Shown: positions 9,323 through 48,779 of the stretch, piece after piece
Numbering within the stretch: position 1 is the first letter of the stretch
Layout of the letters: every line of letters begins with the position of its first letter
Source: Thiomargarita sp.
Lineage (GTDB): Bacteria; Pseudomonadota; Gammaproteobacteria; Beggiatoales; Beggiatoaceae
Direction: 5' to 3'
DNA length: 64,000 nucleotides
NCBI GenBank assembly: GCA_020718845.1
Contig: DYRG01000001.1
Coordinates: 1 to 64,000, forward strand
Position numbers and translations under genes: made by a program
Notes under the pieces: model-generated
The model's database searches: none
Told to the model about the DNA's origin: nothing
Seen by the model: the letters and a program-made list of their open reading frames with translations, nothing else

Positions 9323-10204
9323 TTAACGTGCGTTGTAATCAAAACGGCGATGTAATAACATCATCAGGCTTTCTAAACTAATGCCAACCAAACCAATTAC
9401 AAATATCGCTACAAATATCGATGCAACGTTTAAGTTATTCCACTCGTCCCACACAAAGAAACCAATTCCAACGCCACCTGTCAACATTTCTGCTGCAACA
9501 ATTACCATCCATGCCACACTTAAAGAAAGACGCATCCCTGTTAAAATGTGAGGCAAAGTTGCTGGAATTAAAATTTTATGCGTAATTTCAAATGAGTTTA
9601 AACGCAATATTTTCGCAACATTCATATAATCATCTGGAATGGCTTTGACACCCGAAGCCGTATTTAAAATTACTGGCCAAATGCTCGTGATAAAGATTAC
9701 AAAAATTGCCGACGGATTAACCGCTTTAAATAACAATAATCCAATCGGTAGCCATGCCAAGGGACTGACGGGTTTTAATATTTGAATTAAAGGTTGCCAT
9801 GCTTTCGCAAAAGTATTGCTCATTCCCATGAGAAACCCAATCGGAATTCCAATAATTACTGCCATAAAAAAGCCGCTTAAAACCCGACCTAATGAATAGA
9901 GCAACTGCCAACCAATTCCTTTATTATTAGGACCTGCATCATGAAATGGATCAGAAAACAAAGTTACCGCACGATGCCAAGTATCTAATGGCGTTGGCAA
10001 ATCAGTTGCAAACTTTTGTTGAACTATAATCCATACCCCAATGACAATTGCAAAAGTAAGCAACGGTAAAACCAATGTAGTGGTTAAATCACGCCATTGT
10101 TCTTTACGAACTTTCTTTTCGGGTAAAGCTGCTTTTGCTTGCATTGCCGCTAAGGTATAACGATCTGGACGAGAAAGCGGCATTTCATCTAATGAGTTAC
10201 TCAT
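9323..10204 (-). CDS. nrtB: Nitrate ABC transporter permease
   Basis: A 293-residue inner-membrane permease of the BPD_transp_1 family with several hydrophobic segments after a roughly 40-residue soluble N-terminus. The cytoplasmic EAA-like loop (AKILRLNSFEITHKILIPAT) that contacts the ATPase is present. It lies 15 bases after nrtA and 13 bases before the ATPase start, giving the order binding protein, permease, ATPase. NrtB-like proteins work as homodimers; the substrate is inferred from the operon. Confidence 0.9.
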   Translation of the reverse strand: MSNSLDEMPLSRPDRYTLAAMQAKAALPEKKVRKEQWRDLTTTLVLPLLTFAIVIGVWIIVQQKFATDLPTPLDTWHRAVTLFSDPFHDAGPNNKGIGWQLLYSLGRVLSGFFMAVIIGIPIGFLMGMSNTFAKAWQPLIQILKPVSPLAWLPIGLLLFKAVNPSAIFVIFITSIWPVILNTASGVKAIPDDYMNVAKILRLNSFEITHKILIPATLPHILTGMRLSLSVAWMVIVAAEMLTGGVGIGFFVWDEWNNLNVASIFVAIFVIGLVGISLESLMMLLHRRFDYNAR

Positions 10205-10219
10205 TATTTTCTCCTAGTT

Positions 10220-11596
10220 CTAACTATTTAATTTAGCAAGTTCTTCTAAACTAAATTTAGGGGATTTCACCTCAAAATTACTAATATATTCAACGATCTT
10301 TTTCGGATCAAATGTTTTACCATCAAAAAAGAGATCGCTACCCATTTGAATAGGGCTAGTTGCATCATTTAATGTCCAGATTTTGCTATTTGTTCCTTCG
10401 GTTTTTGAATCAATCGTTGGATAAGAAACACCTAGGGCTTTTGCCGCCTCACGATATAAATCTGGACGATAAATACTTTCTGCCGTTGCTTTAATGTTTA
10501 AGGGTTTCTCAATTTGACCCCAACGAATCATTTGACTAATAAACCATTCTGCATGAGAACGCCAAGGAAAAGTCGCTGCATACCGATTGAAAACATTAAA
10601 ATCTTCTAATGGTTTTGCTTTTTCATCTTTCTGATATTGAAATGTACCTGTCATCGACATTTTTACAACATCAATCGGTGCATTTACATAAGACTTATCA
10701 GAAATAATTTTTACTACTTCCATGCGATTTTCTGGCTTATCCATCCATTGAGAAGCTTCAATCATTGCCATTAATAAGGCTTTGTGTGTATTAGGGTTTT
10801 TATCAGCCCATTCTTGAGTTACGCCAAAAACTTTTTCTGGATTATTGTTCCAAATTTCATAGCTGGTAATTAGGATTTTTCCAATCCCCATTGTTACCGC
10901 ACGTTCATTCCAAGGTTCTCCAACACAATAACCCGCAATGTTTTTCGCATTTAAGTTTGAAACCATTTGAGGAGGGGGAATGACAATCATCCGCACATCA
11001 TTATCGGGATCAATACCTGCTGAAGCCATCCAATAACGTAATTGATAATTATGCGTAGAAACAGGAAAAACCATTGCAAACGTCAAAGGTTCTTTACCCA
11101 CTTTCTTTTCTTCATCAATGACTTTTTTCAAGGCTTTTGCAGAAATCGGCGATTGTTTCATAGATTCTGGATCAGCTTTCACCATTTTGTCATACAGTTC
11201 ATTGCTGACAGTAATCGCATTTCCATTTAAATCCATGCTATAGGCTGTAATAGTGGGTTTTGCAATCGCACCTACCCCTAACGTGGCAGCAATTGGCATT
11301 CCCGCTAACATATGCGCACCATCTAATGCACCTAAAGAAACTTTATCACGAATATTTGCCCAAGATGCTTCTTTTGAAATGATAGTTTCTAATCCATATT
11401 TCTTAAAATAGCCTTTCTCATGTGCAATAACGATAGGAGCGCAATCAGTTAGAGGAATAATACCCAAAGTTAATTTAGTTTTCTCTAATTTTTCTCCGCC
11501 TGCTGCGTACACTGAGTTTCTCAAACTAGGTAATACCATTGCTGCACCTCCCGCGATGCTCAAACGTAAAAAGTCACGACGCGAAAATTCTTTCAT
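10220..11596 (-). CDS. nrtA: Nitrate ABC transporter substrate-binding protein, Tat-exported
   Basis: A 458-residue NrtA/CmpA-family binding protein. The N-terminus (KEFSRRDFLRLSIAGGAAM) carries a twin-arginine motif, and cleavage is likely near residue 31. The mature part begins with the family's LGIIPLTDCAPIVIAHEKG stretch. It would capture nitrate in the periplasm for NrtB and the ATPase. It is the first structural gene after the leader terminator. Homology cannot by itself separate nitrate from nitrite or bicarbonate binding; the nir and nas neighbours favour nitrate. Because it is exported it is not the cytoplasmic sensor NasS, which is absent from the window. Confidence 0.9.
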   Translation of the reverse strand: MKEFSRRDFLRLSIAGGAAMVLPSLRNSVYAAGGEKLEKTKLTLGIIPLTDCAPIVIAHEKGYFKKYGLETIISKEASWANIRDKVSLGALDGAHMLAGMPIAATLGVGAIAKPTITAYSMDLNGNAITVSNELYDKMVKADPESMKQSPISAKALKKVIDEEKKVGKEPLTFAMVFPVSTHNYQLRYWMASAGIDPDNDVRMIVIPPPQMVSNLNAKNIAGYCVGEPWNERAVTMGIGKILITSYEIWNNNPEKVFGVTQEWADKNPNTHKALLMAMIEASQWMDKPENRMEVVKIISDKSYVNAPIDVVKMSMTGTFQYQKDEKAKPLEDFNVFNRYAATFPWRSHAEWFISQMIRWGQIEKPLNIKATAESIYRPDLYREAAKALGVSYPTIDSKTEGTNSKIWTLNDATSPIQMGSDLFFDGKTFDPKKIVEYISNFEVKSPKFSLEELAKLNS

Positions 11597-11630
11597 GTTA
11601 ATTTCCTCTCATAATTAAGTAAAATCCAAT

Positions 11631-11678
11631 AAAAAAAGCGTTCAAAATAAGTGAGAGTTTCTCACCTAATTTGAACGC
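11631..11678 (-). terminator. Leader terminator (attenuator) upstream of nrtA
   Basis: The minus strand forms a long hairpin between nasT and nrtA. GCGTTCAAA pairs exactly with TTTGAACGC, and an inner GTGAG/CTCAC adds more pairs (about 17 with one mismatch), followed directly by seven U residues at 11637-11631. It stands 34 bases before the nrtA start, so it would stop transcription of nrt-nir-nas unless relieved. Confidence 0.85.
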
Positions 11679-11692
11679 CTTTGTTCGTTTGT

Positions 11693-11708
11693 AAATCGCC
11701 GTTGATTT
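11693..11708 (-). promoter_or_regulatory. Candidate ANTAR-binding hexaloop hairpin in the nas leader
   Basis: On the minus strand AAATC pairs with GATTT around the six-base loop AACGGC, which has A at position 1 and G at position 4 as in ANTAR RNA targets. A second weak stem at 11674-11689 (AACG/CGTT) uses the first bases of the terminator arm, so forming it would compete with the terminator. That second loop has eight bases and is not canonical. The preceding gene, nasT, encodes the ANTAR protein. Confidence 0.55.
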
Positions 11709-11716
11709 GCGGTTGT

Positions 11717-12289
11717 TTAAGCCAGTAATTCTGCTACATTGATAATTTGTTCAGCAACGTCAATCATTTTCAAATGTTTATCCATTGCCATTCTTCTCAA
11801 GGTTTGATAAGCGGTTTCCTCATCAAAACCTTTGTGTTTCATCAAAATACCTTTTGCTTTTTCGATACTTTTTCTTTCTGCAAGTTTGTGTTTAGTGCTT
11901 TCAAGTTCTTTACACATCGCGTTATATTCACGAAAACGTGCAATTGCAACCTCTAAAATGGCTTTCAAACGTTTCTGACTAAAACCATCCACAACATAAG
12001 CACTAACACCAGCTTTTACAGCAGATTCAATGAGTTGTCGATCATCATTTTCTGCAAGAATTACCACCGGTTTAGCTTGTTCTTTCTTCAAGCTCGTTAG
12101 ATATTCTAACGTGTCCCGATTAGGCGATTCCATATCAATTAAAATAACATCGCACTCGATTTCAAATGTTTTTTTTAATAAATCTTCATTGGTATGAATT
12201 ACCGCAGAAATTTGATAACCCGAATCTAATAAAGCCTGTTTCAATAATGCAGCGCGTCCTCGGTCTTCATCTATCAACATTACTTTCAT
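11717..12289 (-). CDS. nasT: NasT-type ANTAR antiterminator, response-regulator fold
   Basis: A 190-residue protein with an N-terminal receiver domain (VMLIDEDRG, candidate acceptor D52 in ILIDMESPNRD) and a C-terminal ANTAR RNA-binding domain (about 128-187; SIEKAKGILMKHKGFDEETA). NasT-family proteins bind leader hairpins and prevent termination ahead of nitrate assimilation genes, usually controlled by the nitrate-binding NasS. Here nasT heads the operon and its likely target lies in the 120-base gap to nrtA. I start it at the ATG at 12289, after CTGGGG, instead of the in-frame ATG 33 bases upstream, because alignable NasT sequence begins there. No nasS is adjacent. Confidence 0.88.
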   Translation of the reverse strand: MKVMLIDEDRGRAALLKQALLDSGYQISAVIHTNEDLLKKTFEIECDVILIDMESPNRDTLEYLTSLKKEQAKPVVILAENDDRQLIESAVKAGVSAYVVDGFSQKRLKAILEVAIARFREYNAMCKELESTKHKLAERKSIEKAKGILMKHKGFDEETAYQTLRRMAMDKHLKMIDVAEQIINVAELLA

Positions 12290-12353
12290 GATTGACCCCA
12301 GATTTGCAATCCTTTTATCCAATCACTACATTGCAATTAGATTCTTTTAAATC

Positions 12354-12400
12354 GTCACTTCTTTGTGACTTAAATAATTATAAGCAAAGAATCGTGCCAA
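12354..12400 (-). promoter_or_regulatory. Candidate promoter/operator of the nas operon
   Basis: The minus strand has TTGGCACG (12400-12393), a TATAAT box (12382-12377) and an inverted repeat GTCAC-N6-GTGAC (12354-12369) just downstream. The TTGGCACG...TTTGC arrangement resembles a sigma-54 site, but the GG to GC spacing is 11 instead of 10, so a sigma-70 promoter with a weak -35 is preferred. The inverted repeat could be an operator or the first hairpin of the transcript. Confidence 0.35.
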
Positions 12401-12451
12401 TTATCTAATCTATTGATTTTATTTAATTTTTAAAATATACAATAATTCTAA

Positions 12452-12500
12452 TTGCACTAAAAGAATGCATTATATTGGGCAAAATGATTTTTTAGTGCAA
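12452..12500. repeat. 11-bp perfect inverted repeat after the methyltransferase-SDR gene
   Basis: TTGCACTAAAA at 12452-12462 matches TTTTAGTGCAA at 12490-12500, with a 27-base loop. It lies eight bases beyond the stop of the minus-strand gene ending at 12508. It could act as a terminator (U-rich arm) or be a small mobile repeat. Confidence 0.5.
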
Positions 12501-12507
12501 GGGTTAA

Positions 12508-14025
12508 TTATTGGTCACGGGGTTCGATGAGGATTTCGTTGAGGGCGATGTGGGGTTTTGCCGTCACCGCGCCCACAATGCAATCTGCCACATCGAACGG
12601 GCTGAGGAGTTGTGAATCTGATGCCCAGCCGTGTCCGACTTTGAACTGGGGATTTAAGCCAAGCGCGTTGAGGGCTTGAGTGTCGGTATTGTTGTGGATC
12701 AGATCGGTGCGAACATCCCCGGGTTGTATGTCGGTGATTCGAATGCCTTTTCCACGACATTCGTTGCGCAGATTTTGCGATAAGGTGGTGACAAAGGCTT
12801 TCGACGCGCAATACACCGCCAATCCTGCAAACGGCGTTTTAGCGGCATCGCTGCTGATGTTGATGATGTGACCCGATTTTTGTTGCATAAAAGTTGGAAT
12901 CACCGCGCCGATGCAATTCACCACGCCAGAAATGTTGACATCGATGATGTTCGCCCATTCTTCAAAAACGCCGTTTTCCATAAAAGTGTAAAACATGACC
13001 CCCGCCGCGTTGATTAATACGTCGATCCGCCCGAAACGTTCGAGGGTTATTTTAATCAAATCAAGGACTTGTTCACGCAGTGAAACATCGGTCGGCGCGA
13101 CGATACAAATCCCGCCTTGTTCATCGATGAGTTTTTTTAAATCGTTGAGTTTATTGATATTTCTCGCAGCTAAAACGACACTTGCACCTTGGGCAGCCAA
13201 CGCAATCGCCGTCGCTCGACCAATCCCCGACGACGCGCCCGTACAAATCATCACTCGACCTTTCAACTTTTGCGATTGAACGCCATATTTTTGTGCTTGA
13301 ATTACCCAGTAGGTTTTAATACCTGCTTGAATTTCTTGAAGTTTTTGCTTGAACGATGACGCGGTTGAGTCAGATTCAGTGGAAGAAGCGGCGGTTAAAC
13401 GATCAAATTCGGCTTGGGTGTGGCGGGCGTAACGATCCGTATCATTGGACACTTGAACTCGCACAAAAGCATGATTTTCCAGCAGATCGTAATACTCTGA
13501 TTGCATTAATAAATGATAACCTTTGCGTTCGTGTGTGGATTGTTGTTGTTGAGTCAAAGGTTGGGTTGAAATGCCGTAATCAGTGGCGAAAAATTTACCG
13601 TTTGGTTTTAACCATGCTCTAATTCTTTGAAATAATTGATTTTTTTGATCGGCATTGAAATGCAGCAACGCATCTCGACAAATAACATAATCAAAGGAAT
13701 TTTCTTCAAAATCAGCAGCGATCACATCGCCGTGAATGAATTCACATTGGGATGCCGTTTTTTCAGCGACTTGTTTGGCGTGGGCGATCAACGCTGCTTC
13801 GCGGTCGATGCCAATGACTTTAACCCCATGTTTATGCTCAAGATAAAACGCACTGCCGCCCAAACCACAACAAACATCTAAAATGCGCATTCCTGATCCG
13901 AGTGTTTCGTCGGCAAAAAATACGTCGAGATACGCCGCGCCGCCGCAAGACATGAATCCTTCACCAAAGGCTAATTCAAATAATTTTACATTTCCCATGC
14001 TGTATTGTTTTTCAGCGATTGCCAT
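12508..14025 (-). CDS. Fusion of SAM-dependent methyltransferase and short-chain dehydrogenase/reductase
   Basis: A 505-residue two-domain protein. Residues 1 to about 245 form a class I methyltransferase: FGEGFMSCGG resembles the substrate segment of phosphoethanolamine N-methyltransferases, and motif I is ILDVCCGLGG (about 49-58). From about 255 a classical SDR follows, with TGASSGIG (near 262-269), NAAG, a Ser in NISSDAAK and catalytic YCASK (Y near 405, K near 409). An AGGAG site precedes the ATG, which overlaps the aldolase stop (TGATG). The fusion suggests methylation and carbonyl reduction or alcohol oxidation on one intermediate. Substrate unknown. The gene is GC-richer than the nitrate genes beside it. 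Confidence 0.85.
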   Translation of the reverse strand: MAIAEKQYSMGNVKLFELAFGEGFMSCGGAAYLDVFFADETLGSGMRILDVCCGLGGSAFYLEHKHGVKVIGIDREAALIAHAKQVAEKTASQCEFIHGDVIAADFEENSFDYVICRDALLHFNADQKNQLFQRIRAWLKPNGKFFATDYGISTQPLTQQQQSTHERKGYHLLMQSEYYDLLENHAFVRVQVSNDTDRYARHTQAEFDRLTAASSTESDSTASSFKQKLQEIQAGIKTYWVIQAQKYGVQSQKLKGRVMICTGASSGIGRATAIALAAQGASVVLAARNINKLNDLKKLIDEQGGICIVAPTDVSLREQVLDLIKITLERFGRIDVLINAAGVMFYTFMENGVFEEWANIIDVNISGVVNCIGAVIPTFMQQKSGHIINISSDAAKTPFAGLAVYCASKAFVTTLSQNLRNECRGKGIRITDIQPGDVRTDLIHNNTDTQALNALGLNPQFKVGHGWASDSQLLSPFDVADCIVGAVTAKPHIALNEILIEPRDQ

Positions 14026-14648
14026 CACACAACTCCTGATTGTTTAAGATTGTCGAGATACGAACTGGGGCATTCGGGTAATTGAATGTCATTGCCGAGC
14101 ATTTTGGTCATTTTGGCAGCCTGTTCGAGGTTCAATGCGGTGTACAACGCCCATTCCATCGAGTCGCTGCCCAACAAACACCCATGATGCGCCAACAATA
14201 AAACATCAAAACCTTGAGTGAATTGTTCTGCGCAGGCGGCGGCGAGTTGTTGCGTACCCGGTTGAATAAACGGCAATCGAGCGACTTTGCCCGCAAGATA
14301 ATAAGTATGATCAACCGTGATGTTTTTGATAGCGATATTCGCGGTGGCGAGCAAAATCGCGTGTTGAGGGTGAAAATGCAGCAAACATAAAAAATCAGGT
14401 CTGGCTCGATAACCCGCAAGGTGCATAGCAGTTTCAGAAGACGCGCCCGCAGGAACTTCGTCGTCTAATTTAAAAGAAACAAACGAATCCACCTCAAGTT
14501 CATCAAGACACACACCCGACCGCGTAATGGTGATCTCGTTGGTTTGTGCGTCGTAAGTGGAAAGATTGCCCCCATCGGCGATGGTTAACTCTGAGCTGAC
14601 CAGTTTTTTTCCCAATGCGATCAGCTTGTGGAGATTTTTTTTTATCAT
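14025..14648 (-). CDS. Class II aldolase/adducin family protein
   Basis: A 207-residue protein of the zinc-dependent class II aldolase fold (fuculose-/ribulose-phosphate aldolase relatives). The metal ligands are visible as the HFHPQH pair (near residues 93-95) and a later His in LAHHGCL (near 155), with ASSETAMH in the phosphate/active-site region. It would cleave or form a carbon-carbon bond of a hydroxy-carbonyl compound, or decarboxylate or dehydrate one. It sits between the Rieske oxygenase (20 bases upstream) and the fusion enzyme (one-base overlap), so all three probably form one transcript. Specificity cannot be told from sequence. Confidence 0.8.
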   Translation of the reverse strand: MIKKNLHKLIALGKKLVSSELTIADGGNLSTYDAQTNEITITRSGVCLDELEVDSFVSFKLDDEVPAGASSETAMHLAGYRARPDFLCLLHFHPQHAILLATANIAIKNITVDHTYYLAGKVARLPFIQPGTQQLAAACAEQFTQGFDVLLLAHHGCLLGSDSMEWALYTALNLEQAAKMTKMLGNDIQLPECPSSYLDNLKQSGVV

Positions 14649-14668
14649 GATGTGTGCTCGGTTTTTAA

Positions 14669-15823
14669 CTAATCTTGCGATTTGGTTTGAAGATATTGGT
14701 CGATGGCTTTCAAATATAACCCATGAAAATGATGAACGCCGTGTTCAGACGAGCCTTGATCTTTTCCGCTGCACACCACGAAACGTCCGCCTTTTTCGCA
14801 GACAGGCGTTTTCAAACCTCGATGCACGCTTTCAACGATGTCGATGTCTTCTTTTTGTAAAACTTTATCAACATATTCAATGGCTTCCATTTGACCAGCA
14901 TTCGGTGGCGAATTGGGAAAAAAGAAATCAAAAGTTTCGAGGGTCGTTTCTTCATCGACTGGAATGAAATGCCACACCATCCAATTGGGTCCTCCTGGGT
15001 AGCGCAATAATCCCGTGTTGGGCCACAACCACCACAAAAGATGTTCTTGAACAGTCGCCCCTTCAACGTTATAAGCTGAATTGCTGGTCGTGCCAGCGGG
15101 AGAAATTTGGCTGGAATAAATGTCGTAAGTGGTGACTTTGTAATTTTGTATATCAATCAATGACATAAGGTCTTTGTGAGTCGACGCGCAGTGATAACAT
15201 TCCAAGAAATTATCGACGACGATTTTCCAATTGGCTTTCACGCGATAAGTGAGTCGATGCGCGTGGGTTAACGATCCTAAATCAGGGGCACGTTGTTGAA
15301 TTTCTTGAGCTAAATCGCCCGATTGAACGGCTAACGATGCGGCTTCGGGATTAAGATTGACAAACACCATGCTGCAAAATTCTTCAACTTGAACCGGCAT
15401 CATCCCGAAATTGTCGAAATGAAAATCTTCCATCGTATTTGAATGGCGCGCCCCACGCAGTGTTCCGTCTAAATTATAACCCCAAGCATGATAAGGGCAA
15501 ACAAAGACTTTGATATTGCCTTCCCCTTGAACCAGCTCGTGACCCCGATGGCGGCAAACGTTGTAAAAAGCCCGCAACACGCCTTCACGATCCCGAACGG
15601 CAACCATCGATTGCCCTTGAAGATCAAAGGTGACATAATCCCCTGCGTGGCGAAGTTTCTCGATATGACAAACATACTGCCAACTGTTGTAAAACATCGC
15701 TTGTCGCTCGACCTCGAGGAAATCGGGCGCAACATAAGCGCGAGCTGGCAATGAATGCGAACGTTTGGGATCGTCATCAAAATACTCGGCAAGAGTTTGT
15801 AATTCATGCGTTGAAATAGTCAT
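14669..15823 (-). CDS. Rieske non-heme iron oxygenase, choline/carnitine monooxygenase-like
   Basis: A 384-residue ring-hydroxylating-type oxygenase alpha subunit. The Rieske [2Fe-2S] ligands are C90-x-H92 (NVCRHRGHELVQG) and C109-x2-H112 (VCPYHAWGY). The catalytic iron site has D204, H211 and H216 in VDNFLECYHCASTHKDL, plus a later Asp in EDIDIVE. The pattern is close to the choline, glycine-betaine and carnitine monooxygenase group, which oxidise N-methyl or trimethylammonium compounds, but aromatic substrates are not excluded. No reductase or ferredoxin partner is encoded nearby. It heads the three-gene operon with the aldolase and the methyltransferase-SDR fusion. Confidence 0.85.
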   Translation of the reverse strand: MTISTHELQTLAEYFDDDPKRSHSLPARAYVAPDFLEVERQAMFYNSWQYVCHIEKLRHAGDYVTFDLQGQSMVAVRDREGVLRAFYNVCRHRGHELVQGEGNIKVFVCPYHAWGYNLDGTLRGARHSNTMEDFHFDNFGMMPVQVEEFCSMVFVNLNPEAASLAVQSGDLAQEIQQRAPDLGSLTHAHRLTYRVKANWKIVVDNFLECYHCASTHKDLMSLIDIQNYKVTTYDIYSSQISPAGTTSNSAYNVEGATVQEHLLWWLWPNTGLLRYPGGPNWMVWHFIPVDEETTLETFDFFFPNSPPNAGQMEAIEYVDKVLQKEDIDIVESVHRGLKTPVCEKGGRFVVCSGKDQGSSEHGVHHFHGLYLKAIDQYLQTKSQD

Positions 15824-16000
15824 GTTTTGGCTTCCAAAGTGTGAAAAATATTCAAGAGCATCATTTAGATATAAAAACCTGAATTTTATAATAGTTTATT
15901 TTTTTTATCAAATTGTTTTTATTTTTTTTAAGTTACTCTCCATAAAAAGAGATTACAATAGCTAAAACCCTTTTTTCTTTTTAAGAATGTGTGAAATCTA

Positions 16001-16783
16001 ATGTTACTCAATATTCAACACGAAACACGCTATCTGTATGAATATCCTGTTAATTATAGTTTGCAATATTTGCGTTTAACACCGCGTCAAGATTCAAATC
16101 AAAGAACGCTTGATTGGCAAATAATTGTTAATGGAAATAAACAGTTACAGATTGATGGACATGGAAATATCGGTCATTGGTTGACTTTGGATCAACCTCG
16201 CCAAGACATTTCAATTGTCGTGAAAGGTTTGGTAGAAACAAGTGAGCAATTTTGTTTTCAAGAAACTAATAAATTTGCGTCATTAATCTATTTGACAGAA
16301 ACCCCTTTAACGCATTTCAACGCGGATATTCAAGCCTTTACGCAAGAAAATACTAAAAATAGCAAAGATTTAGCAATTTTGGGCGATTTAATGAATGCCA
16401 TCGCCGATCGAATGCAATTTGAAACGGGTTCGAGCCAAGTTCACGACACCGCCTTGCAAGCCTTTGAAAGACAACGAGGTGTTTGCCAAGATTATGCGCA
16501 TTTATTTGTGGCGTGTTGCAAAAGTATAGGAATTTCAGCACGTTATGTTAGCGGTTATTTATTCACGGGCGACGACGGACACCTCGCCAGCCATGCGTGG
16601 GCGGATGCGTGGTTAGAACCTTACGGCTGGGTGAGTTGTGACGCGACTCATCGCATTTTTGCGGGCGAACCCTATTGTCGATTGGCGGTCGGACGCGATT
16701 ATTTAGAAGCCTGTCCCGTACGCGGTGTGCGACAAGGCGGTGGTTTCGAAAAAATGCACGTCCAAGTTCAGGTTCAACAATAA
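16001..16783 (+). CDS. Transglutaminase-like family protein
   Basis: A 260-residue protein with the bacterial transglutaminase N-terminal beta domain (about 1-85; LNIQHETRYLYEYPV) and a transglutaminase/cysteine protease-like core. The candidate triad is Cys in RGVCQDYAHL (near 167), His in ASHAWADAWL (near 204) and Asp in SCDATHR (near 220). There is no signal peptide. Such proteins are often near ATP-grasp or alpha-E partners, but none is present here. The divergent 177-base gap to the Rieske gene must hold promoters for both. The gene turns from AT-rich to GC-richer at about 16390. Confidence 0.82.
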   Translation: MLLNIQHETRYLYEYPVNYSLQYLRLTPRQDSNQRTLDWQIIVNGNKQLQIDGHGNIGHWLTLDQPRQDISIVVKGLVETSEQFCFQETNKFASLIYLTETPLTHFNADIQAFTQENTKNSKDLAILGDLMNAIADRMQFETGSSQVHDTALQAFERQRGVCQDYAHLFVACCKSIGISARYVSGYLFTGDDGHLASHAWADAWLEPYGWVSCDATHRIFAGEPYCRLAVGRDYLEACPVRGVRQGGGFEKMHVQVQVQQ

Positions 16784-16831
16784 AAAATGCAATCATGCAA
16801 AGTGGCGTAAAAGTGAGAGAACAACTGTGAG

Positions 16832-16873
16832 CATCGATAAAACTTATTTATGCACAGTGCGCATTTGTCGATG
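16832..16873. terminator. Hairpin after the transglutaminase gene
   Basis: CATCGATAAA (16832-16841) pairs with TTTGTCGATG (16864-16873) with one wobble, and a further small stem sits inside (TGCACAGTGCGCA). No strict U-tract follows on either strand, so terminator function is uncertain. It lies in the 235-base gap before the che genes. Confidence 0.3.
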
Positions 16874-17018
16874 TATTTTAAGTCTTTCATAAAAGGGCGT
16901 TCAATTGTATTGAAAAGAGAAAGAAAAACCTTGAATAACTTTACTCGTTTTTTCAAATTTTAATTAAGGTTGTAAATTAATTTATAATTCATGGACGTTC
17001 TAAGTGATATAATCAACG

Positions 17019-17954
17019 TTGATTCCTAAGCGTCAAAAGATTGTGTTCTTGAAACCTCAACCGAAACCCTATTTTGTGAAAAACACTAGCCAAATAACCC
17101 TTCATGATTTTAATTTGGATAATCCAGTAACGGATTCGCCGTTGATTTCTGATCGAGAATTTTCGTTATTTCAAAAGTTTATGTACGACACGGCGGGAAT
17201 TATGCTCACGCCCGTTAAAAAAGTGTTGGTGGCGGCGCGGTTAAATAAACGTTTGCGTCATTATCAATTTAAAAGTTATAACGAGTATTTTGAGTTTGCA
17301 ACTAATGGAACAAATCCAGATGAATTGCAAATGATGATTGATTTGTTGACCACCAATGAAACTTATTTCTTCCGTGAGCCAGAACATTTTGATATTCTTA
17401 AAAATCAAGTACTTCCAAAATGGAAAGACAGCGCGCCCTTTCGAGCATGGAGTGCGGCGTGTTCGTCGGGGGAAGAACCTTACAGCATTGCAATGGTTTT
17501 AATGGATTTTTTTGGTGAAACTATTGAGTGGGAAGTGTTAGGATCGGATATTAGTCGACGGGTCTTAAATATCGCCGAAGATGCGCATTATTCTTTGATC
17601 GAAGGGAAACAGCCTCCGAAACATTATTTAACCAAATATTGCTTAAAAGGCGTGCGGTCGCAGGAAGGAACATTGTTGGTCGATAAGAAAATCCGCAATC
17701 ATGTAAGGTTTGAACAACTCAATTTGAACACACATTTGCCCAATGTTGGATTATTCGACGTGATTTTTTTGAGAAATGTTTTAATATACTTCGATGTGGA
17801 AACCAAACGGCGACTGGTGCATCGTTTGTTGCCTGTGCTAAAAAGTGGCGGACATTGTTTTTTTGGACACGCCGAAAGTTTAGTCGGGATCATGGACGAT
17901 TACATTCATAGCCAAATTTATCCTGTTGCACCAACGGTTTATTGCAAGCGTTAA
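17019..17954 (+). CDS. cheR: Chemotaxis protein methyltransferase
   Basis: CheR methylates glutamates of chemoreceptors with SAM. This 311-residue version has the N-terminal helical domain (FMYDTAGIMLTPVKK), then LLTTNETYFFREPEHFD, the SAM motif AACSSGEEPYSIAMVL, LGSDIS and FDVIFLRNVLIYFD. The start is uncertain: no ATG precedes the conserved region and the frame opens with TTG at 17019 behind a TAA. GTG codons at 17043 and 17076 are alternatives, and no strong ribosome site marks any of them. It leads the che operon. Confidence 0.9.
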   Translation: MIPKRQKIVFLKPQPKPYFVKNTSQITLHDFNLDNPVTDSPLISDREFSLFQKFMYDTAGIMLTPVKKVLVAARLNKRLRHYQFKSYNEYFEFATNGTNPDELQMMIDLLTTNETYFFREPEHFDILKNQVLPKWKDSAPFRAWSAACSSGEEPYSIAMVLMDFFGETIEWEVLGSDISRRVLNIAEDAHYSLIEGKQPPKHYLTKYCLKGVRSQEGTLLVDKKIRNHVRFEQLNLNTHLPNVGLFDVIFLRNVLIYFDVETKRRLVHRLLPVLKSGGHCFFGHAESLVGIMDDYIHSQIYPVAPTVYCKR

Positions 17955-17958
17955 TCTC

Positions 17959-18453
17959 ATGCAAGATATTTTTTTACACCCCGGCGAATTTTATTTCGGG
18001 GATGAACACGTCAAAATTCGTACCTTGTTGGGGTCTTGCGTTGCCATCACCTTGTGGCATCCTCTACGCTTAATTGGCGGTATGTGCCATTATATGTTGC
18101 CTAATCCGAACAAAAGTGATCCACTTCATTTGAATGGTCGCTACGCTGAGGATGCTATCTTGATGTTTTTACAGGAAATTAAAAAATTTCAAACCGTGCC
18201 ATATGAATATCAAGTCAAAGTCTTTGGCGGCGGAAATATGTTTCCATCGTTGAGCAAACCACAAGAAAAAAATATCGGTCAACGCAATATGGATGTGGGA
18301 AAAAAATTACTACAAGAATGCGGGTTTCAAATTCATACCGCGCACATTGGCGGAATTGGGTATCGCCGAATTATTTTTGATATTAGCAACGGCGATGTGT
18401 CGGTTCACCATAACGTCGGCTTACTTCGGCAATTTTCGGACAACTCCGCGTGA
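17959..18453 (+). CDS. cheD: Chemoreceptor glutamine deamidase
   Basis: CheD deamidates glutamine side chains of chemoreceptors and can be a CheC or CheY partner. The 164-residue protein shows RTLLGSCVAITLW with the catalytic Cys and GGMCHYMLP with the catalytic His. I start it at the ATG at 17959, four bases after the cheR stop, because the frame upstream only overlaps cheR. Its TGA overlaps the cheB start. Confidence 0.9.
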   Translation: MQDIFLHPGEFYFGDEHVKIRTLLGSCVAITLWHPLRLIGGMCHYMLPNPNKSDPLHLNGRYAEDAILMFLQEIKKFQTVPYEYQVKVFGGGNMFPSLSKPQEKNIGQRNMDVGKKLLQECGFQIHTAHIGGIGYRRIIFDISNGDVSVHHNVGLLRQFSDNSA

Positions 18454-25325: not shown

Positions 25326-28300
25326 TTAATTAATTAAAGAAAAATGTTGGCGTTCTCCCAAATTATTAATGAAATACAAATGATTATTTTCATCAATAAC
25401 TTGGAAATCAAATATTTCCAAATAATCAATTATATCAATAAGATAGCTTGGTTGCAAAAACCAAATTTGTTTATCATTTGTTTCAATTCTCATTGTCCCA
25501 TTCATTTGACTCATTTGAATATTAATGATATTAGGATAACTGCGTTTTGCAAGATTAAAAATTTCCTCATAATTTTGAAATGCGGGCACTAAACGCTGTA
25601 TTTGAGAATTTGGATAAATAATTCTCCAATTTTCATTAGTATTTGTTGATATTAAACCTGCTGTTTCATTATTTGTATTTTGTTCTAAAAATGGATGTGC
25701 TAAAACGCTGTAAATGTTTTCTCTTAAACTGCGTAAATCTATTTCAATTTCTCCATTACTTCGCATACATAATTTTCCCATTCCACCCCACATATTTAAT
25801 AGCATTTCTGGGTCAGATAAAGTAGGTATAAAAGCATAATGACCTTTGATAGTTTGTAAAACGTATTGTTCCTTAGAATTTATATCTAATTGTGGCATTG
25901 CAATTTTAAGAAACATCTCATTAATATCAGGTAAAAAACCACCGCTTAAAATGTTATTTGTATATAATTGAACAACACCTAAAGTATTTTGTTGCAACCG
26001 ATATTGAATTTGTGGTGTATCGAGTGTTTTCAATACTTCATTTAATTCATTTAAAACGTTGGTTTGTAAATCACCATCATCTCCTCCAAATGCAAAATCT
26101 TTAGATAAATCAGGTATTTCTGGAAAACAAGATAATCCTTCTGGCAATGTAACTCGTTGAATTAATGGATAAAATAATGCACTGTTTTGTGGTGCATTAA
26201 TATTTCCTTTACTATCTAAAGACCAGCCGATAGGTAATCTTGATTGAATTTCTTCAACTAGAAATAAATCTTTCTTTAAATTAACTAACCATTTTCCGAT
26301 TACATTATTGGGAAGAAGTGCGAGTAAATTACTGTTAGCAAAAAACAATTCTCTGTTCATTGCTTGAATGGTTTGAGCAGGAAAGTTTGCAAGCGCGTCT
26401 GCACTTAATTTTGTAAAGCCTTCTGTACTAATTTCAATTAACCGTGATGGACTTAATCCGCGCATTGCATTGCCAGAGAAAGCACTTATTTGATCTGCGC
26501 TTAATGAACCTAATAAATTTGCTGGAAAAATAGCCATTTGTTCTTTAGTTAAGCCATTTAAAGTACTTGCATTTAATAACTTAAACTGATCGACACTAAT
26601 TGCTTTTAATGTTTCAGGTTGAATTTGAGTTAGTTTTTCTGCCGTTAAAACGCTTAATACTTCTTTTGGAATTTGAGCTAATTGCTCGGCTGTTAAACCT
26701 TTTAAACTTTCTTTTGATAAAGTTTGCAAATGAGGAATTGTCATACCTCGAAAAGCCGTTGGAATAATCTTATTTAATAAAGAAGCATTTACCTTTTCTA
26801 ATTTAGTTAAAACTTTGAATTGAGAAGCAGTTAAAATTTCCTTGCTAAGTTGTAAGAAAATAGCTGTTTTTATGCTATCTAAATTGCTTAGATTAATAGG
26901 TAATACCATTGCTGTTTGTTCACTCGTTAAAGCATTTAAATTATCTAATAAATAAAGTGGTAATACATTGATTGCAGAAGCATTTACAGCACTAACTTGC
27001 GGAGATAATAATTTTTCAAGCCCTTTAATTCTTTGTAATTGTGTAAAAGAAAATGCAGCAATAATTTCAGAGGAAAGCGCTTGTAATTGTGCTATTGTTA
27101 ATCCTGCTAATGTAGCAGGAGAAAGTAGTGCTGCTTGTTCAGTTGAAATATTGCTTAATACTAAGAGAGGAATTGTTGCAAGTTGATTAGCATTTAAATC
27201 ACTTAATGTTGCTGGCGAAAGCGCTTTTAGTTGTGGAATAGTTAAACCCGCAAAAATTGATGCTGATAATTTTTCTAAATTAATTTCATTTAATGTTTCT
27301 ATCGGCAAAGTTGCTAATTGTGCAGCGGTTAAATTTGATAAAAAATTATCATTTAAAATAGATGCTTGATCAGGTGTTAATTTAGAAATATTTAAACCAT
27401 TTGGTTGTGTGATATTTTCTAAAGCAAGTAAAGCTACTTGTTCGGATTTTAAAATATTAAAATGAGGAAATACTGCTAATTGTTCTGGTGTTAAATATTG
27501 TAAAAAAGTGTTTAATTGAGTAATTTGATCTACTGTTAATCCATTAATTGCAGAAGGAGAAAGTGCTGCGATTTGCTCTTGCGTTAATTGATTAAGCAAA
27601 TTTCCATTTAAAGTTGCTAATTGTGCATTTGTCAAACCACTTAAATTTGTGGGTAAAATAGAGCTTAAAGCATTAGGATTTTTATTTAATTCTTTAATTA
27701 CATTTGGTGGAATTTGTGCCAATTGTTTGTTAGTTATTGCACTCAAATTTGGTAGTAATTTATTGAATTGATCGACATTTAAACTTTCTATTGCAAATGG
27801 ATTAATTGCAGCGATTTGTTTTCCATTTAAAACACCAAAGATTGCTGCGGGGATTTTCGCTAATTGATCTTTAGTTAATCCTTTCAATGCAGAAACCGCT
27901 AAATTCTTTGCTTGTTCTACAGTTAAACTTGCAAAAGCATTTGAAGGAATTTGAGCTAATTGAGTGGCATTTATAACTGATAAGGCTTGATTTGATAAAC
28001 TCGCAATACTTTGTAATTGTCCTAAGGTATTATTCGTTTCAAATGCGGGTGGTTTTAAAGCTGCTAAATTAGGATTTGAACTTGTTTGTTCAGCAGTTTG
28101 TGCAGCTAAGGTTTCTGGAGAAATCGCCGATAATTGAGCAACGCTTAAACCTGATAACGCATTTGGCGTTAATGCTGCCATTTGTTCTGGCGTTAAACCA
28201 CTCAATCCTTCTAACGATATATTTTTTATCTGTTCTACACTTAATCCAGACATTGCAGCGGGCGGTATTTGAGCTATTTGTATAGCAGTTAATTCACTTA

Positions 28301-30650
28301 ATGCGTTTGAACTTAATGATTGCATAAACAACGCATTTAATGCTTCAAGTATTTCTGGAGTTAAATTAGCAATTTGTTTGGGGGTTAATTTAGCGATTGT
28401 TTCGGGTGTTAATTTTAATAATTGAGGAACGGTTAAACCCGCAAAAGTAATTGGTAAGATTCTCTCTAATTGTTCAGCCGTTAATGTTCCAATTGCAATG
28501 GGTAAAATTTGTTTTAATTGTTTTGCATTTAAGGCACTTATTGTTTCAGGCAGAATTTCACTAATATTTTGTAATTCACTCAATGCAATGGGTCTTAAAT
28601 TTTTAAGATGAGGAAACGTTAATCCAGCTAAAGCAGATATATCTAAAGCTGCTAATTGTTTAGCATTTAAAACTCTAATTGATTCAATCGGTAATTTATT
28701 GATTTGTTTATCTATTAAGACACTTAAAATATTAGGAGAAATTTCTTTTATTTGGGCAGGTCTAATTCCTTCCATTGCAGAAATAGAGATTTGTCCAATT
28801 TGCTCAGCGGTCATTTGAGAAATAGTATTTGGTTTTAATGCTGATATTTGTAATTTTGAGAATGCACTAAAGGAAAGTGGAGGAATTAAAGCTAATTGTT
28901 GAGCCTTTAAAACTGCTATATTGTGGAGAGGTAATTTTTCAAGTTGAGCAAGGGTTAAAGCACTTAATGCAGAAGGCGCTAAATTTGCGAATTGTGCGGG
29001 GGTGAATGCCGCAAATGCGTCGGAAGAAAACATTGCTAATTGATTTGCATTTAAACTGGTAAGACATTCACGAGAGAAAAAAGGTATTTGTGGGATTTGA
29101 AAACCAGCAAATGCTTCAGTTGATAATTTTTGAATTTGTACGGGTTGAAAACCTCTCATTGCATTTGGAGAAAGTTTAGAAATTTGTATTGCATTAAAAC
29201 CACTGACTGTAAAATCAGATAATTTACTTATTTGTGGCGTATTAAAAGCAGCGATTGCTCCTAACGTTAAATAAGGGATTTGAGCAGCATTAAAACCAAT
29301 GCAAACATCAGGCGAAAGACTTTTGATTTGTTCTGCGGTTAATTTTGCGATTTCATCAGGTAACATTTTAGCGATTTGTTCAGCGGTTAATAATTTAGCG
29401 GCTTGATTAGCAAGATTTTGATCTGTACCCACTAAGACAGCCATTGGATCAAGTTTAGCAATTTGTTCTTTTGTTAAGGCAGCTTTGGTTTCTTTATCCA
29501 TGGCTTCTAATTGTTCTTTTGTGAAACCAGAAACGGCTTCTGGACTTAATACTTTTGCTTGAGCAGGAGTTATTTTAGCAACGGTTTCTGGATGAAGATT
29601 TGCTATTTGATCTTTGCTCATACAAGCGATTGTTTTTGGTTCAATTTCAGCAATTTGTTTGGGTTGCAAACCTTTGGTTGGGGTGATTTTAGGTGAAGCT
29701 GGTTTTTCAGTTGAACTGCTTGAATTTTCAGTTGAACCACTTGAAGATGATTCGCTTGTTTTTGAAGAAGTTGATGAAGAAGTAGCACTTTGAGTTAAAT
29801 CATCGTTGCTAGATAAAGAAAAAGCGTTAATTTTCTTTAATTGTTCACAAGTTAAACCACCAATGGCATCAGGTTTAAGAAGAGGGATTTCTCCTTGAAG
29901 AAAACCAGAGAAAAATCTCGGATCAAGATCGGTTAATTCTTCTTTTGTTAAGGCTTGCAAACCAGAAGAAGGTTTTTTAGGTTGGGTTTGTAAAATCTTT
30001 GCTGGAATAGGTGGATCAATGGGATCAGTGGGCTTGCGAATATATGGAGTTTCTTCTAAGAAAAGTTGCACGCCTAAAGATTGAAAATAGGTTAATTTAT
30101 TTAATAAAGTTTGATCAACTTTGCAACGAACAAATTTAGTATTTCCAAAGATTGCGCTGGTAAAATCCGCCCCGCGTAAATCAACATTTTGAAAGGTAAC
30201 ACCTTGTAAAATGGCATTATTAAAAGAAACGCCGCGTAAATTAATAAATTCCTCTAATTGATCCAAAGAAGTACCGCGTCCAGGTCCAATGAATTTAGCG
30301 TTTTCTAAATCGCTTTTGTAGAAATTAGTTTGCTCAACTTTTGCACCTTGAAAATTAACGCCTTTTAAACTCGAATAAGAAAAATTACTTCGAGATAAAT
30401 CGGCATAACTAAAATCAGATTGAGAAATATTTGCCGCAATAAAATAAGAATTATTGAGATTTGAACCTTTGGCATTTACATTTTGAAAATCTTTCCAAAT
30501 CATAAAGATACCGCCCAAATCATCGCAATTAACGCAGGCTTTTAAAGTGAGCAAACGATACCAAGGAATCGCAAGGAAAAAATCAGTAATAAAGGCTGAG
30601 GTTGTAATAGGAGTCAGCATTAAGCAGCCTAAAAGTAACCACTTTTTCAT
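25326..30650 (-). CDS. Giant exported protein: pentapeptide repeats plus about 70 repeats of 16 residues
   Basis: A 1774-residue protein starting at the ATG at 30650, which has AAGGTG seven bases ahead. A signal peptide (MKKWLLLGCLMLTPITTSAF) is followed by pentapeptide repeats at about 55-110 and 140-190 (SQSDFSYADLSRSNFSYSSL). After a repeat start near 235 and a Ser/Thr-rich linker (about 290-325), a 16-residue unit recurs to about residue 1450. Its pattern is L-T-x-x-Q-I-x-x-L-S-P-x-A-I-x-G, for example LTAEQIKSLSPDVCIG. The last 320 residues are not repetitive. The unit looks like a short helical solenoid. I do not recognise its family; a surface or periplasmic binding role is only a guess. 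Confidence 0.8.
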   Translation of the reverse strand: MKKWLLLGCLMLTPITTSAFITDFFLAIPWYRLLTLKACVNCDDLGGIFMIWKDFQNVNAKGSNLNNSYFIAANISQSDFSYADLSRSNFSYSSLKGVNFQGAKVEQTNFYKSDLENAKFIGPGRGTSLDQLEEFINLRGVSFNNAILQGVTFQNVDLRGADFTSAIFGNTKFVRCKVDQTLLNKLTYFQSLGVQLFLEETPYIRKPTDPIDPPIPAKILQTQPKKPSSGLQALTKEELTDLDPRFFSGFLQGEIPLLKPDAIGGLTCEQLKKINAFSLSSNDDLTQSATSSSTSSKTSESSSSGSTENSSSSTEKPASPKITPTKGLQPKQIAEIEPKTIACMSKDQIANLHPETVAKITPAQAKVLSPEAVSGFTKEQLEAMDKETKAALTKEQIAKLDPMAVLVGTDQNLANQAAKLLTAEQIAKMLPDEIAKLTAEQIKSLSPDVCIGFNAAQIPYLTLGAIAAFNTPQISKLSDFTVSGFNAIQISKLSPNAMRGFQPVQIQKLSTEAFAGFQIPQIPFFSRECLTSLNANQLAMFSSDAFAAFTPAQFANLAPSALSALTLAQLEKLPLHNIAVLKAQQLALIPPLSFSAFSKLQISALKPNTISQMTAEQIGQISISAMEGIRPAQIKEISPNILSVLIDKQINKLPIESIRVLNAKQLAALDISALAGLTFPHLKNLRPIALSELQNISEILPETISALNAKQLKQILPIAIGTLTAEQLERILPITFAGLTVPQLLKLTPETIAKLTPKQIANLTPEILEALNALFMQSLSSNALSELTAIQIAQIPPAAMSGLSVEQIKNISLEGLSGLTPEQMAALTPNALSGLSVAQLSAISPETLAAQTAEQTSSNPNLAALKPPAFETNNTLGQLQSIASLSNQALSVINATQLAQIPSNAFASLTVEQAKNLAVSALKGLTKDQLAKIPAAIFGVLNGKQIAAINPFAIESLNVDQFNKLLPNLSAITNKQLAQIPPNVIKELNKNPNALSSILPTNLSGLTNAQLATLNGNLLNQLTQEQIAALSPSAINGLTVDQITQLNTFLQYLTPEQLAVFPHFNILKSEQVALLALENITQPNGLNISKLTPDQASILNDNFLSNLTAAQLATLPIETLNEINLEKLSASIFAGLTIPQLKALSPATLSDLNANQLATIPLLVLSNISTEQAALLSPATLAGLTIAQLQALSSEIIAAFSFTQLQRIKGLEKLLSPQVSAVNASAINVLPLYLLDNLNALTSEQTAMVLPINLSNLDSIKTAIFLQLSKEILTASQFKVLTKLEKVNASLLNKIIPTAFRGMTIPHLQTLSKESLKGLTAEQLAQIPKEVLSVLTAEKLTQIQPETLKAISVDQFKLLNASTLNGLTKEQMAIFPANLLGSLSADQISAFSGNAMRGLSPSRLIEISTEGFTKLSADALANFPAQTIQAMNRELFFANSNLLALLPNNVIGKWLVNLKKDLFLVEEIQSRLPIGWSLDSKGNINAPQNSALFYPLIQRVTLPEGLSCFPEIPDLSKDFAFGGDDGDLQTNVLNELNEVLKTLDTPQIQYRLQQNTLGVVQLYTNNILSGGFLPDINEMFLKIAMPQLDINSKEQYVLQTIKGHYAFIPTLSDPEMLLNMWGGMGKLCMRSNGEIEIDLRSLRENIYSVLAHPFLEQNTNNETAGLISTNTNENWRIIYPNSQIQRLVPAFQNYEEIFNLAKRSYPNIINIQMSQMNGTMRIETNDKQIWFLQPSYLIDIIDYLEIFDFQVIDENNHLYFINNLGERQHFSLIN

Positions 30651-30737
30651 AATTAACACCTTAGTCAAGTTTAATATTTTTCATAGATTTGAATTATGTA
30701 TAACATAACTCTTAAAAATTAGCAAAATTTTGAGCGC

Positions 30738-47314: not shown

Positions 47315-48016
47315 TTAGATCATTAGTGCAAATGCTCCCCCAAGGGTAAGCTTTTTACGTCTAACACTTTTTGTGCCTTTCCAAACGATTGTTGGTTTTT
47401 CCCAAACGAAAGACTTTTTGATTTCACCAAGAAGCAGTGGAGTAGATACAGGACTCGCACTTAATGGATTAAGTGAAACATCATGAATCCAAGCAGTCCC
47501 ATGATTATGTATTTTACTGGCATCAATGTAGGAGATTGGATTTAATTCAGTTACTCCATCAATAACTATTCCTGTCTTCGGTTCAAAAATATCACCTAGC
47601 TCATTTCTTGAACCATTTTTTGGAATTATTGCCTTAGGGTGATTTAGGTGTAGGTAATCATAAAATTCTTTATGATTTGTAAATTCTTTCTCTACCCTTG
47701 TTATATAAAAAATATAATTTTTTTCTCCATCAAATCCCTTGTTTTTCACAATAGGAGTTAAACCAATAATCCAAACACCCTTCCATTTTCCTTTGTTGCC
47801 TTGCCTCATATAATGCTTGCAAGTACAAAGTGTAACAATCCCATCTTCAACATTGGGAGCACTACCATTTTGTTGAATAATTCCACTCGCATCTCTCGTT
47901 AATGAAGTGAGTGTATAAATATAAGCCGTATCATCCAAAAATGCACTCAATTGTTTTCTCAAACTATTTAGATTGAGAGCGTTACTCTTCCAAGTAGATA
48001 AATTTTGTGTTGCCAT
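47315..48016 (-). CDS. Nmad2-like (nucleotide modification associated) protein, tentative
   Basis: A 233-residue protein. The middle part (TLCTCKHYMRQGNKGKW, VWIIGLTPIV, NYIFYITRVEKEF, HKEFYDYL) follows the order seen in nucleotide modification associated domain 2 proteins: a CxCK-like segment, a W-x-IG strand and a Y-x-x-x-VxEK strand. Such proteins were proposed to take part in synthesis of hypermodified DNA bases. I start it at 48016, where TAGGAGT lies upstream, and not 36 bases earlier. It lies 19 bases after the Nmad3-like gene. The assignment is from pattern memory only. Confidence 0.5.
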   Translation of the reverse strand: MATQNLSTWKSNALNLNSLRKQLSAFLDDTAYIYTLTSLTRDASGIIQQNGSAPNVEDGIVTLCTCKHYMRQGNKGKWKGVWIIGLTPIVKNKGFDGEKNYIFYITRVEKEFTNHKEFYDYLHLNHPKAIIPKNGSRNELGDIFEPKTGIVIDGVTELNPISYIDASKIHNHGTAWIHDVSLNPLSASPVSTPLLLGEIKKSFVWEKPTIVWKGTKSVRRKKLTLGGAFALMI

Positions 48017-48035
48017 AATTGTGACTCCTATTCTA

Positions 48036-48779
48036 TTACCAATTATTTGCAATCAACTGATTACCTGTTTTTTTCATCTCCACATTAAGCCAAGAAAGGA
48101 ATTTCCCTGAATCATTGAACCATGGTGGATTCACACTACGTTGAATAAATCCATTTTTAACATCCAAACCACCCCAATCCTTTAACATATCATGAGTAAC
48201 TCGGTACGATTTATCACGATATTCACCAATTGGAATTGCATACTTTAATCGACCAGATTTTTCTTTGTCGGCAAAAATTACAATATGATCTTTATTACGA
48301 TCTGTAATCCTTGTATGTGCATTTAAGTGAAAATCCTTTGGTTGAATATCTCCTACCAGAATAACTTTATCAACCACCATAAAACCAAAAATAGCGTAAA
48401 TCAATCTATGGCTACAAGGTGTAATGGGTTTAAAACTAGCAAAGAAAACTAAAAAATCTCCTTGTTTGAGTTTTTTTACACGATTTCCACGCCCTGTACC
48501 TTGGTCGCCATAGGTAAGGCAATCAAAATCAGGATCAAGATGGCAATTTCTATTTTTTAAATTATTTGGAAATACACCTGAAAAAGAATTATTCTTTGCC
48601 CATGTTCCAAAAAATGGCACAATTTGATTGTACCCAGTTGCCATACCTTTCAAAAAGGTATGATTATCTTGCGGAATTGGCATATACAAATAATCATTTG
48701 TCACAGGATTGATTGGCGCATTATATTTGCCATAAGTCTGGTCGATACCAACGCGCAGTAAGAGTCCTCTTCTAGTCAT
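48036..48779 (-). CDS. Nmad3-like (nucleotide modification associated domain 3) protein
   Basis: A 247-residue protein beginning RRGLLLRVGIDQTYGKYNAP with DYLYMPIPQ, then NCHLDPDFDCLTY, GDQGTGRGNRVKKLKQGDFLVFFASF and a beta-rich IFGFMVVDKVILVGDI. This is the order of motifs in Nmad3 proteins (SRKGFDxxYG, LPIPE, HLDPDL, GQxG..GDLFLFFGWF). The family is predicted, not proven, to act in DNA base hypermodification. An AAAAGGAAC site precedes the ATG. It is divergent from rpoD and forms a two-gene unit with the next gene. Confidence 0.65.
   Translation of the reverse strand: MTRRGLLLRVGIDQTYGKYNAPINPVTNDYLYMPIPQDNHTFLKGMATGYNQIVPFFGTWAKNNSFSGVFPNNLKNRNCHLDPDFDCLTYGDQGTGRGNRVKKLKQGDFLVFFASFKPITPCSHRLIYAIFGFMVVDKVILVGDIQPKDFHLNAHTRITDRNKDHIVIFADKEKSGRLKYAIPIGEYRDKSYRVTHDMLKDWGGLDVKNGFIQRSVNPPWFNDSGKFLSWLNVEMKKTGNQLIANNW

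Follow-up and report, generated by a model that had tools for sequence, protein, structure and literature searches.

A Rieske oxygenase, a class II aldolase, and a methyltransferase–dehydrogenase fusion form a conserved operon in filamentous sulfur bacteria and cyanobacteria

Most of what is known of group V Rieske enzymes concerns the breakdown of choline, carnitine, and betaines. One of them, CntA, carries the cysteine pair Cys206/Cys209 as a group V feature (PMC10952381), and it stays active when Tyr203 is replaced by Phe, the residue that the benzalkonium enzyme OxyBAC has at that position (PMC7948474). Among class II aldolases, DrdA is a dihydroxyacetone phosphate (DHAP) aldolase, which joins and splits DHAP and small aldehydes reversibly (PMC6079011). 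In the 64,000-nucleotide stretch of Thiomargarita sp. DNA analyzed here (contig DYRG01000001.1, positions 1 to 64,000; hereafter, the window), relatives of these two enzymes are encoded in one operon together with a third protein, in which a methyltransferase resembling phosphoethanolamine N-methyltransferase (PMT) is fused to a short-chain dehydrogenase/reductase (SDR). The gene set is real, conserved, rare, and transferred, and it brings known enzyme families into an undescribed combination: a literature search found no paper describing it, in line with an earlier note, made from the sequence of this DNA, that knew of no pathway with these enzymes. Our favored reading, held tentatively and at somewhat less than even confidence, is that the three genes constitute a horizontally transferred metabolic module acting on a quaternary-ammonium (N-trimethyl) compound, most likely in its biosynthesis.

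The operon and its closest described relatives

The operon occupies window positions 12508–15823 on the minus strand and is transcribed in the order Rieske oxygenase (14669–15823, 384 amino acids [aa]), class II aldolase (14025–14648, 207 aa), and methyltransferase–SDR fusion (12508–14028, 506 aa, starting at a GTG or at the next ATG). The first two genes are separated by 20 nucleotides (nt), and the last two overlap by 4 nt in the sequence GTGA, as expected for a translationally coupled operon. Pfam recognizes Rieske and Ring_hydroxyl_A domains in the first protein, Aldolase_II in the second, and both Methyltransf_25 (residues 49–144) and adh_short (residues 259–450) in the third. The coordinates, spacing, and domains agree with the earlier description of three tightly packed minus-strand genes, one with two catalytic domains.

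The Rieske protein, a predicted non-haem iron oxygenase alpha subunit, had been likened to choline, carnitine, and betaine monooxygenases, and CntA is indeed its best match in a PDB sequence search (PDB 6y8j and 6y9d; E = 5e-75 over 362 residues). The match to CntA is full length and extends to the fold, the predicted structure (mean pLDDT 86) fitting CntA best with Z scores of 37.0–39.6, compared with about 35 for stachydrine demethylase. With the roles of Glu205, the iron ligands, Tyr203, and the cysteine pair of CntA taken from PMC7948474 and PMC10952381, the Rieske cluster ligands C90/H92 and C109/H112, the iron site H211/H216/D326, and the bridging E208 are invariant in 17 homologues and align to CntA. 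The cysteine pair beside the mononuclear iron is kept as C209/C212, and F206 takes the place of Tyr203, the pi-cation aromatic, as in subgroup Va. Every sequence mark tested for group V enzymes is thus retained, and the protein is predicted to be an oxygenase of the quaternary-ammonium type. The carnitine contacts of CntA, in contrast, are largely replaced: Y225 alone is kept, while F258, N270, Y295, Y315, and F319 correspond to H261, L273, F298, V318, and L322. We therefore assign the protein to the quaternary-ammonium type and not to the carnitine monooxygenases. All 17 aligned homologues share Arg274, which neighbors the N270 position. The locus also differs from that of CntA in its other partner genes and in having no adjoining CntB reductase gene; unlinked ferredoxin–FNR-type reductases are present in the same genome. 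A ferredoxin-reductase gene 7.7 kb from the corresponding operon of Candidatus Albibeggiatoa was considered as a partner and rejected, since 25 of the order's 43 genomes have homologues of it, and almost all of these lack the operon.

The aldolase has DrdA as its closest solved relative (PDB 6btd; E = 6e-21), and FucA (4c24) is also matched. For residue roles we relied on those we take to hold for FucA, namely the metal ligands, the residues that contact the DHAP phosphate, and the catalytic Tyr113. The metal residues Glu72, His91, His93, and His155 and the phosphate-site residues N28, S70, and S71 are all retained. The protein is nevertheless distant in sequence from both enzymes and scores 88 bits against the top FucA NCBIfam model, the cut-off of which is 264. 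Moreover, DrdA clusters include kinase or isomerase genes, and this operon has neither.

The N-terminal half of the fusion (residues 1–245; 13294–14028, minus strand) is a PMT-like S-adenosylmethionine (SAM) methyltransferase. Residues 7–213, covering the whole PMT domain, align with plant and Plasmodium PMT structures (E about 1e-30 to 1e-33), and the FGEGFxSxGG segment on which the earlier note had based the same comparison lies at residues 21–30 as FGEGFMSCGG. In an alignment of five fusions and three bacterial PMT-like proteins, for which we assumed the PfPMT roles of the catalytic Tyr and His and of the phosphate ligands Tyr160, Tyr175, Arg179, Tyr181, and Lys247, the catalytic dyad (Y9 and H123) is conserved, as are the SAM motifs (D51 and D75, aligned to 5wp4 and 4iv8). 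The phosphate site retains three of its five ligands (Tyr160, Tyr181, and Lys247), whereas Arg179 has become Lys and Tyr175 is lost, replaced by an aliphatic residue or Thr, in all five fusions. The three bacterial PMT-like homologues retain Tyr175, Arg179, and Tyr181, and two of them, from other gammaproteobacteria, adjoin genes that by eye resemble choline/ethanolamine kinases. The methyltransferase half is thus derived from PMT, probably with a changed acceptor. Fusion to an SDR, moreover, is seen in no matched solved PMT.

The C-terminal half (12508–13293, minus strand) has the features of a classical SDR: the TGxxxGxG motif (T263–G270, TGASSGIG) and the tetrad N365/S393/Y406/K410 are invariant in five fusions. 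So is Arg289, which follows beta-2. An Arg at this place is the usual mark of NADP(H) use in SDRs, and Arg289 suggests that this half probably uses NADP(H). An AlphaFold model of the fusion had a mean pLDDT of 49 (five sequences) and was not used.

Occurrence and transfer between phyla

The Rieske protein was used as a query against about 85,000 species genomes; the resulting counts are lower bounds. The earlier note would have been contradicted by homologues that are never found together; instead, the intact module, with identical order and fusion, is present in at least three other genomes, those of Oscillatoria sp. PCC 10802 (locus L025), Oscillatoria sp. HE19RPO (L026), and Candidatus Albibeggiatoa (L028). 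Among the matches listed, the intact set outside the window genome is thus confined to one sister lineage and two filamentous cyanobacteria. Albibeggiatoa has a second fusion copy (L028:14607–16151), 77–79% identical to the first and 1.1 kb downstream of it, beyond an unrelated minus-strand gene. In Microcoleus CAWBG506 (L096) the Rieske gene is reduced to its first ~122 residues and no aldolase match is present; this truncated gene is followed by a TnpB-like transposon gene of the IS200/IS605 type (L096:10001–11326). Among the 43 genomes of the window's order, all of one family (apparently Beggiatoaceae, as Albibeggiatoa is included), two have the Rieske gene, namely the window genome and Albibeggiatoa. 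The aldolase occurs in 1 of 386 cyanobacterial genomes, and the fusion in 2 of 293 genomes of the order of Oscillatoria PCC 10802 and in a single one of 398 Pseudomonadota genomes, that of the window. In a survey of 86 Rieske loci, an adjoining aldolase gene was present in the three intact operons only. Viral contigs gave no match; phage records held more distant Rieske genes only, in contigs labeled "Acinetobacter phage," and a plasmid search with the fusion as query was dominated by generic SDRs and returned no full-length match.

Between phyla, the Rieske, aldolase, and SDR sequences are 71–84% identical and the methyltransferase half 66–69%. The ratio of nonsynonymous to synonymous change (pN/pS) is 0.11–0.26 across the operon genes, lowest for the aldolase, while synonymous sites are near or past saturation, which argues for old, functional genes under selection. 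Since the same order and fusion recur in two phyla at these pN/pS values, the linkage of the three genes is not a matter of chance.

A Rieske tree places the four operon sequences together with full support; within this group, the window and the two Oscillatoria sequences are joined (96/82) and Albibeggiatoa lies outside, contrary to taxonomy. The tree was built without GbcA, Stc2, and choline monooxygenase sequences and hence is silent on the group Va branch. The grouping of the window with Oscillatoria rather than with Albibeggiatoa indicates that the operon moved between phyla, and aldolase and SDR identities agree, the window being nearest Oscillatoria. The halves of the fusion, compared separately as the earlier note had advised, part company here: the SDR half follows the other genes, whereas the methyltransferase half is nearest Albibeggiatoa (72%, against 66–67% to Oscillatoria), a discordance that points to recombination or uneven rates in the fusion. 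From these comparisons we regard the operon as horizontally transferred between phyla, in either direction. The foreign origin proposed earlier therefore finds its support in the tree. Its original ground, base composition, is by itself weak evidence: the operon has a GC content of 45.5–47% against 36.6% for the window, but GC-rich genes of the window also include cheB (49.8%) and rpoD (43.4%).

The flanks of the window, Albibeggiatoa, and Oscillatoria copies differ, with one exception common to the cyanobacteria. Directly upstream of the Rieske gene, on the same strand, these have a SAM_HAT (DUF62) gene (L025:9036–9902, L026:8797–9711, and, at the broken Microcoleus copy, L096:9029–9897). It encodes a divergent paralogue with FQGRD and SRFGA in place of the hydrolase motifs FHGRD and DxFGN, and across 386 cyanobacterial genomes this type occurs only in the operon carrier, other matches being at most 41% identical. 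The paralogue may perform new SAM chemistry. A second extra gene, for an SMR exporter, lies 23 nt after the fusion in Oscillatoria PCC 10802 and is missing from HE19RPO. Neither gene has a linked counterpart in the window genome, where both were considered as hidden partners and rejected: its SAM_HAT is of the ordinary FHGRD type, on another contig beside a metallo-beta-lactamase-fold gene, and its sole SMR gene, which is SugE/Gdx-like, lies at a distance of 80 kb.

At about 50% identity, cousin Rieske genes occur on alphaproteobacterial and Pseudomonas plasmids within quaternary-amine clusters. Transport is represented there by choline/betaine ABC transporters or a choline substrate-binding gene; the other partners include choline-sulfatase, BKACE, SDRs, an aminobutyraldehyde dehydrogenase, and a hydroxyacyl-CoA-dehydrogenase-like gene. 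This association supports a quaternary-amine substrate. One cluster recurs on plasmids of Rhizobiales, Roseobacter, and Pseudomonas (L112, L113, L114, L131, and L132), comprising a GlxA-type regulator, a group Va-like Rieske gene, an SDR, BKACE, aminobutyraldehyde dehydrogenase, and a hydroxyacyl-CoA-dehydrogenase-like gene, usually accompanied by a choline/betaine ABC transporter or choline-sulfatase; no published description of its substrate was found. Such clusters, from Mesorhizobium, Shinella, Roseovarius, Ruegeria, and Pseudomonas, resemble the operon in the Rieske enzyme and in having at least one SDR gene, but they have BKACE and aldehyde dehydrogenase, mostly also importers, and neither aldolase nor methyltransferase. 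A marine Arenicellales cousin (L034:1176–12297) is followed, as judged by eye, by three SDR genes and by hydantoinase-like, dimethylglycine-dehydrogenase-like, and MttB-like genes.

Candidate pathways

In the biosynthesis that we favor, the methyltransferase half would use SAM to N-methylate a small amino compound, probably an anionic one, and the Rieske enzyme, with electrons from an unlinked ferredoxin/flavin reductase, would hydroxylate the carbon beside the quaternary nitrogen to give an aldehyde, as choline and carnitine monooxygenases do. The class II aldolase would couple that aldehyde to DHAP, and the ketone so formed would be reduced by the SDR half, probably at the expense of NADPH. 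The SMR pump of Oscillatoria could export the cationic product. Whereas families, catalytic residues, linkage, and transfer are read from the sequences directly, we infer the substrate, the order and direction of the steps, and the cofactor. The combination of a methyltransferase and a reductase with no importer favors synthesis over breakdown, and the earlier suggestion of a hydroxy-carbonyl compound fits the aldolase and SDR residues. Several points weigh against this pathway. With Tyr175 missing from the PMT phosphate site and Lys in place of Arg179, the acceptor has probably changed, and the direction of the SDR cannot be read from sequence. Catalytic Tyr113 of FucA is not kept, the aligned position being His114 in a gapped part of the alignment. 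The SMR gene adjoins one copy only and the sole SMR of the window genome lies far from the operon. Finally, a direct PMT product as the Rieske substrate would put a phosphate into a pocket for which choline or carnitine is the substrate in the closest known relatives.

The same enzymes could instead run in a catabolic module. Here a quaternary-ammonium polyol phosphate would be oxidized by the SDR and cleaved by the Rieske enzyme, what remains would yield DHAP and an aldehyde through the aldolase, and an amine product would be recycled or detoxified by the methyltransferase. In favor are the cousin Rieske enzymes, whose clusters look catabolic and include ABC importers, and DrdA, which runs in the cleavage direction in cells (PMC6079011). 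We nonetheless consider breakdown unlikely: no intact copy of the operon has an importer, a dedicated regulator, or a downstream oxidizing enzyme, a SAM-consuming methyltransferase would be costly in catabolism, the SMR gene of Oscillatoria PCC 10802 comes from an exporter family, and the SDR looks NADP(H)-type. Quite unlikely, too, is a route to the osmoprotectant glycine betaine, in which the methyltransferase supplies phosphocholine as the source of free choline, the Rieske enzyme acts as a choline monooxygenase to give betaine aldehyde, unlinked enzymes complete the synthesis, and the aldolase and SDR contribute side activities. A PMT-like half beside a group Va-type Rieske enzyme is what such a route would need, cousin Rieske genes adjoin choline transport or choline-sulfatase genes, and the gammaproteobacterial methyltransferase homologues adjoin a kinase-like gene. 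Yet no operon copy includes an aldehyde dehydrogenase, two of the five PMT phosphate ligands are changed that the kinase-linked homologues keep, and the strict conservation of the aldolase and the SDR fusion are left unexplained.

The cyanobacterial copies, with a SAM_HAT-family gene, a FucA-type aldolase, and an SDR, recall the fluorinase/chlorinase and 5-deoxyribose pathways. By analogy, SAM_HAT would add a nucleophile to the 5' carbon of the SAM ribose, and DHAP and a two-carbon aldehyde would later arise from a 5-substituted ribulose phosphate through the aldolase. That SAM_HAT stands directly upstream in all three cyanobacterial copies, diverges at residues conserved in hydrolases, and is restricted to the operon carrier speaks for this scheme, as does DrdA being the nearest solved aldolase. 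We judge it improbable, however, because no nucleosidase, phosphorylase, or sugar-phosphate isomerase lies nearby and SAM_HAT is absent from both sulfur-bacterium operons. Equally improbable in our estimation is that the genes are loose cargo of a mobile region, linked by descent and not by one pathway. Their rare and patchy occurrence would suit such cargo, and the disagreement between the methyltransferase half and the rest means that the histories of the parts may differ to some degree. Gene order, the overlap or near-overlap of neighbors, and the fusion have nevertheless been kept past silent-site saturation between phyla, with all genes under purifying selection, and no mobile-element genes were seen adjoining the window copy.

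Surroundings of the operon and significance of the module

A candidate sigma-70-like promoter (TTGATA-17-TAAAAT, window 15883–15911, minus strand) lies 60–88 nt upstream of the Rieske start. No intrinsic terminator was found after the fusion gene, and the numbers of promoter and terminator matches in this region are at chance level. Searches of window 10000–18000 found no RNA families. The earlier note had stated that no transporter, reductase, or regulator adjoins; this stands for the first two, whereas a NasT-like ANTAR regulator begins 186 nt downstream, though it apparently belongs with the nitrate genes. Between it and the fusion gene (12452–12500) is a perfect 11-nt inverted repeat, TTGCACTAAAA/TTTTAGTGCAA, with arms 27 nt apart. 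Elsewhere in the window, positions 25326–30668 encode a predicted 1780-aa protein in which pentapeptide-like repeats precede dozens of repeats, each ~22 residues long, of the type LTAEQIAKLSPEAL, and two adjacent minus-strand open reading frames at 47315–48779 resemble nucleotide-modification-associated-domain proteins, both as judged by eye.

Returning to biosynthesis, a more specific and in our view doubtful proposal is that filamentous sulfur bacteria and cyanobacteria have in common an undescribed route to a quaternary-ammonium sugar or polyol, made from a trimethylammonio-aldehyde and DHAP and then reduced, which in cyanobacteria is tied to a SAM_HAT lacking the hydrolase residues and perhaps to new SAM chemistry. 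With three soluble enzymes and a culture-collection carrier in Oscillatoria PCC 10802, the module is directly testable. Here a group V Rieske enzyme is locked together with a methyltransferase–reductase fusion and a sugar-phosphate aldolase, in a set mobile between phyla. Should the module prove biosynthetic, group V Rieske chemistry would have a new use, which would also suggest that mat-forming bacteria have a methylated metabolite not yet known.

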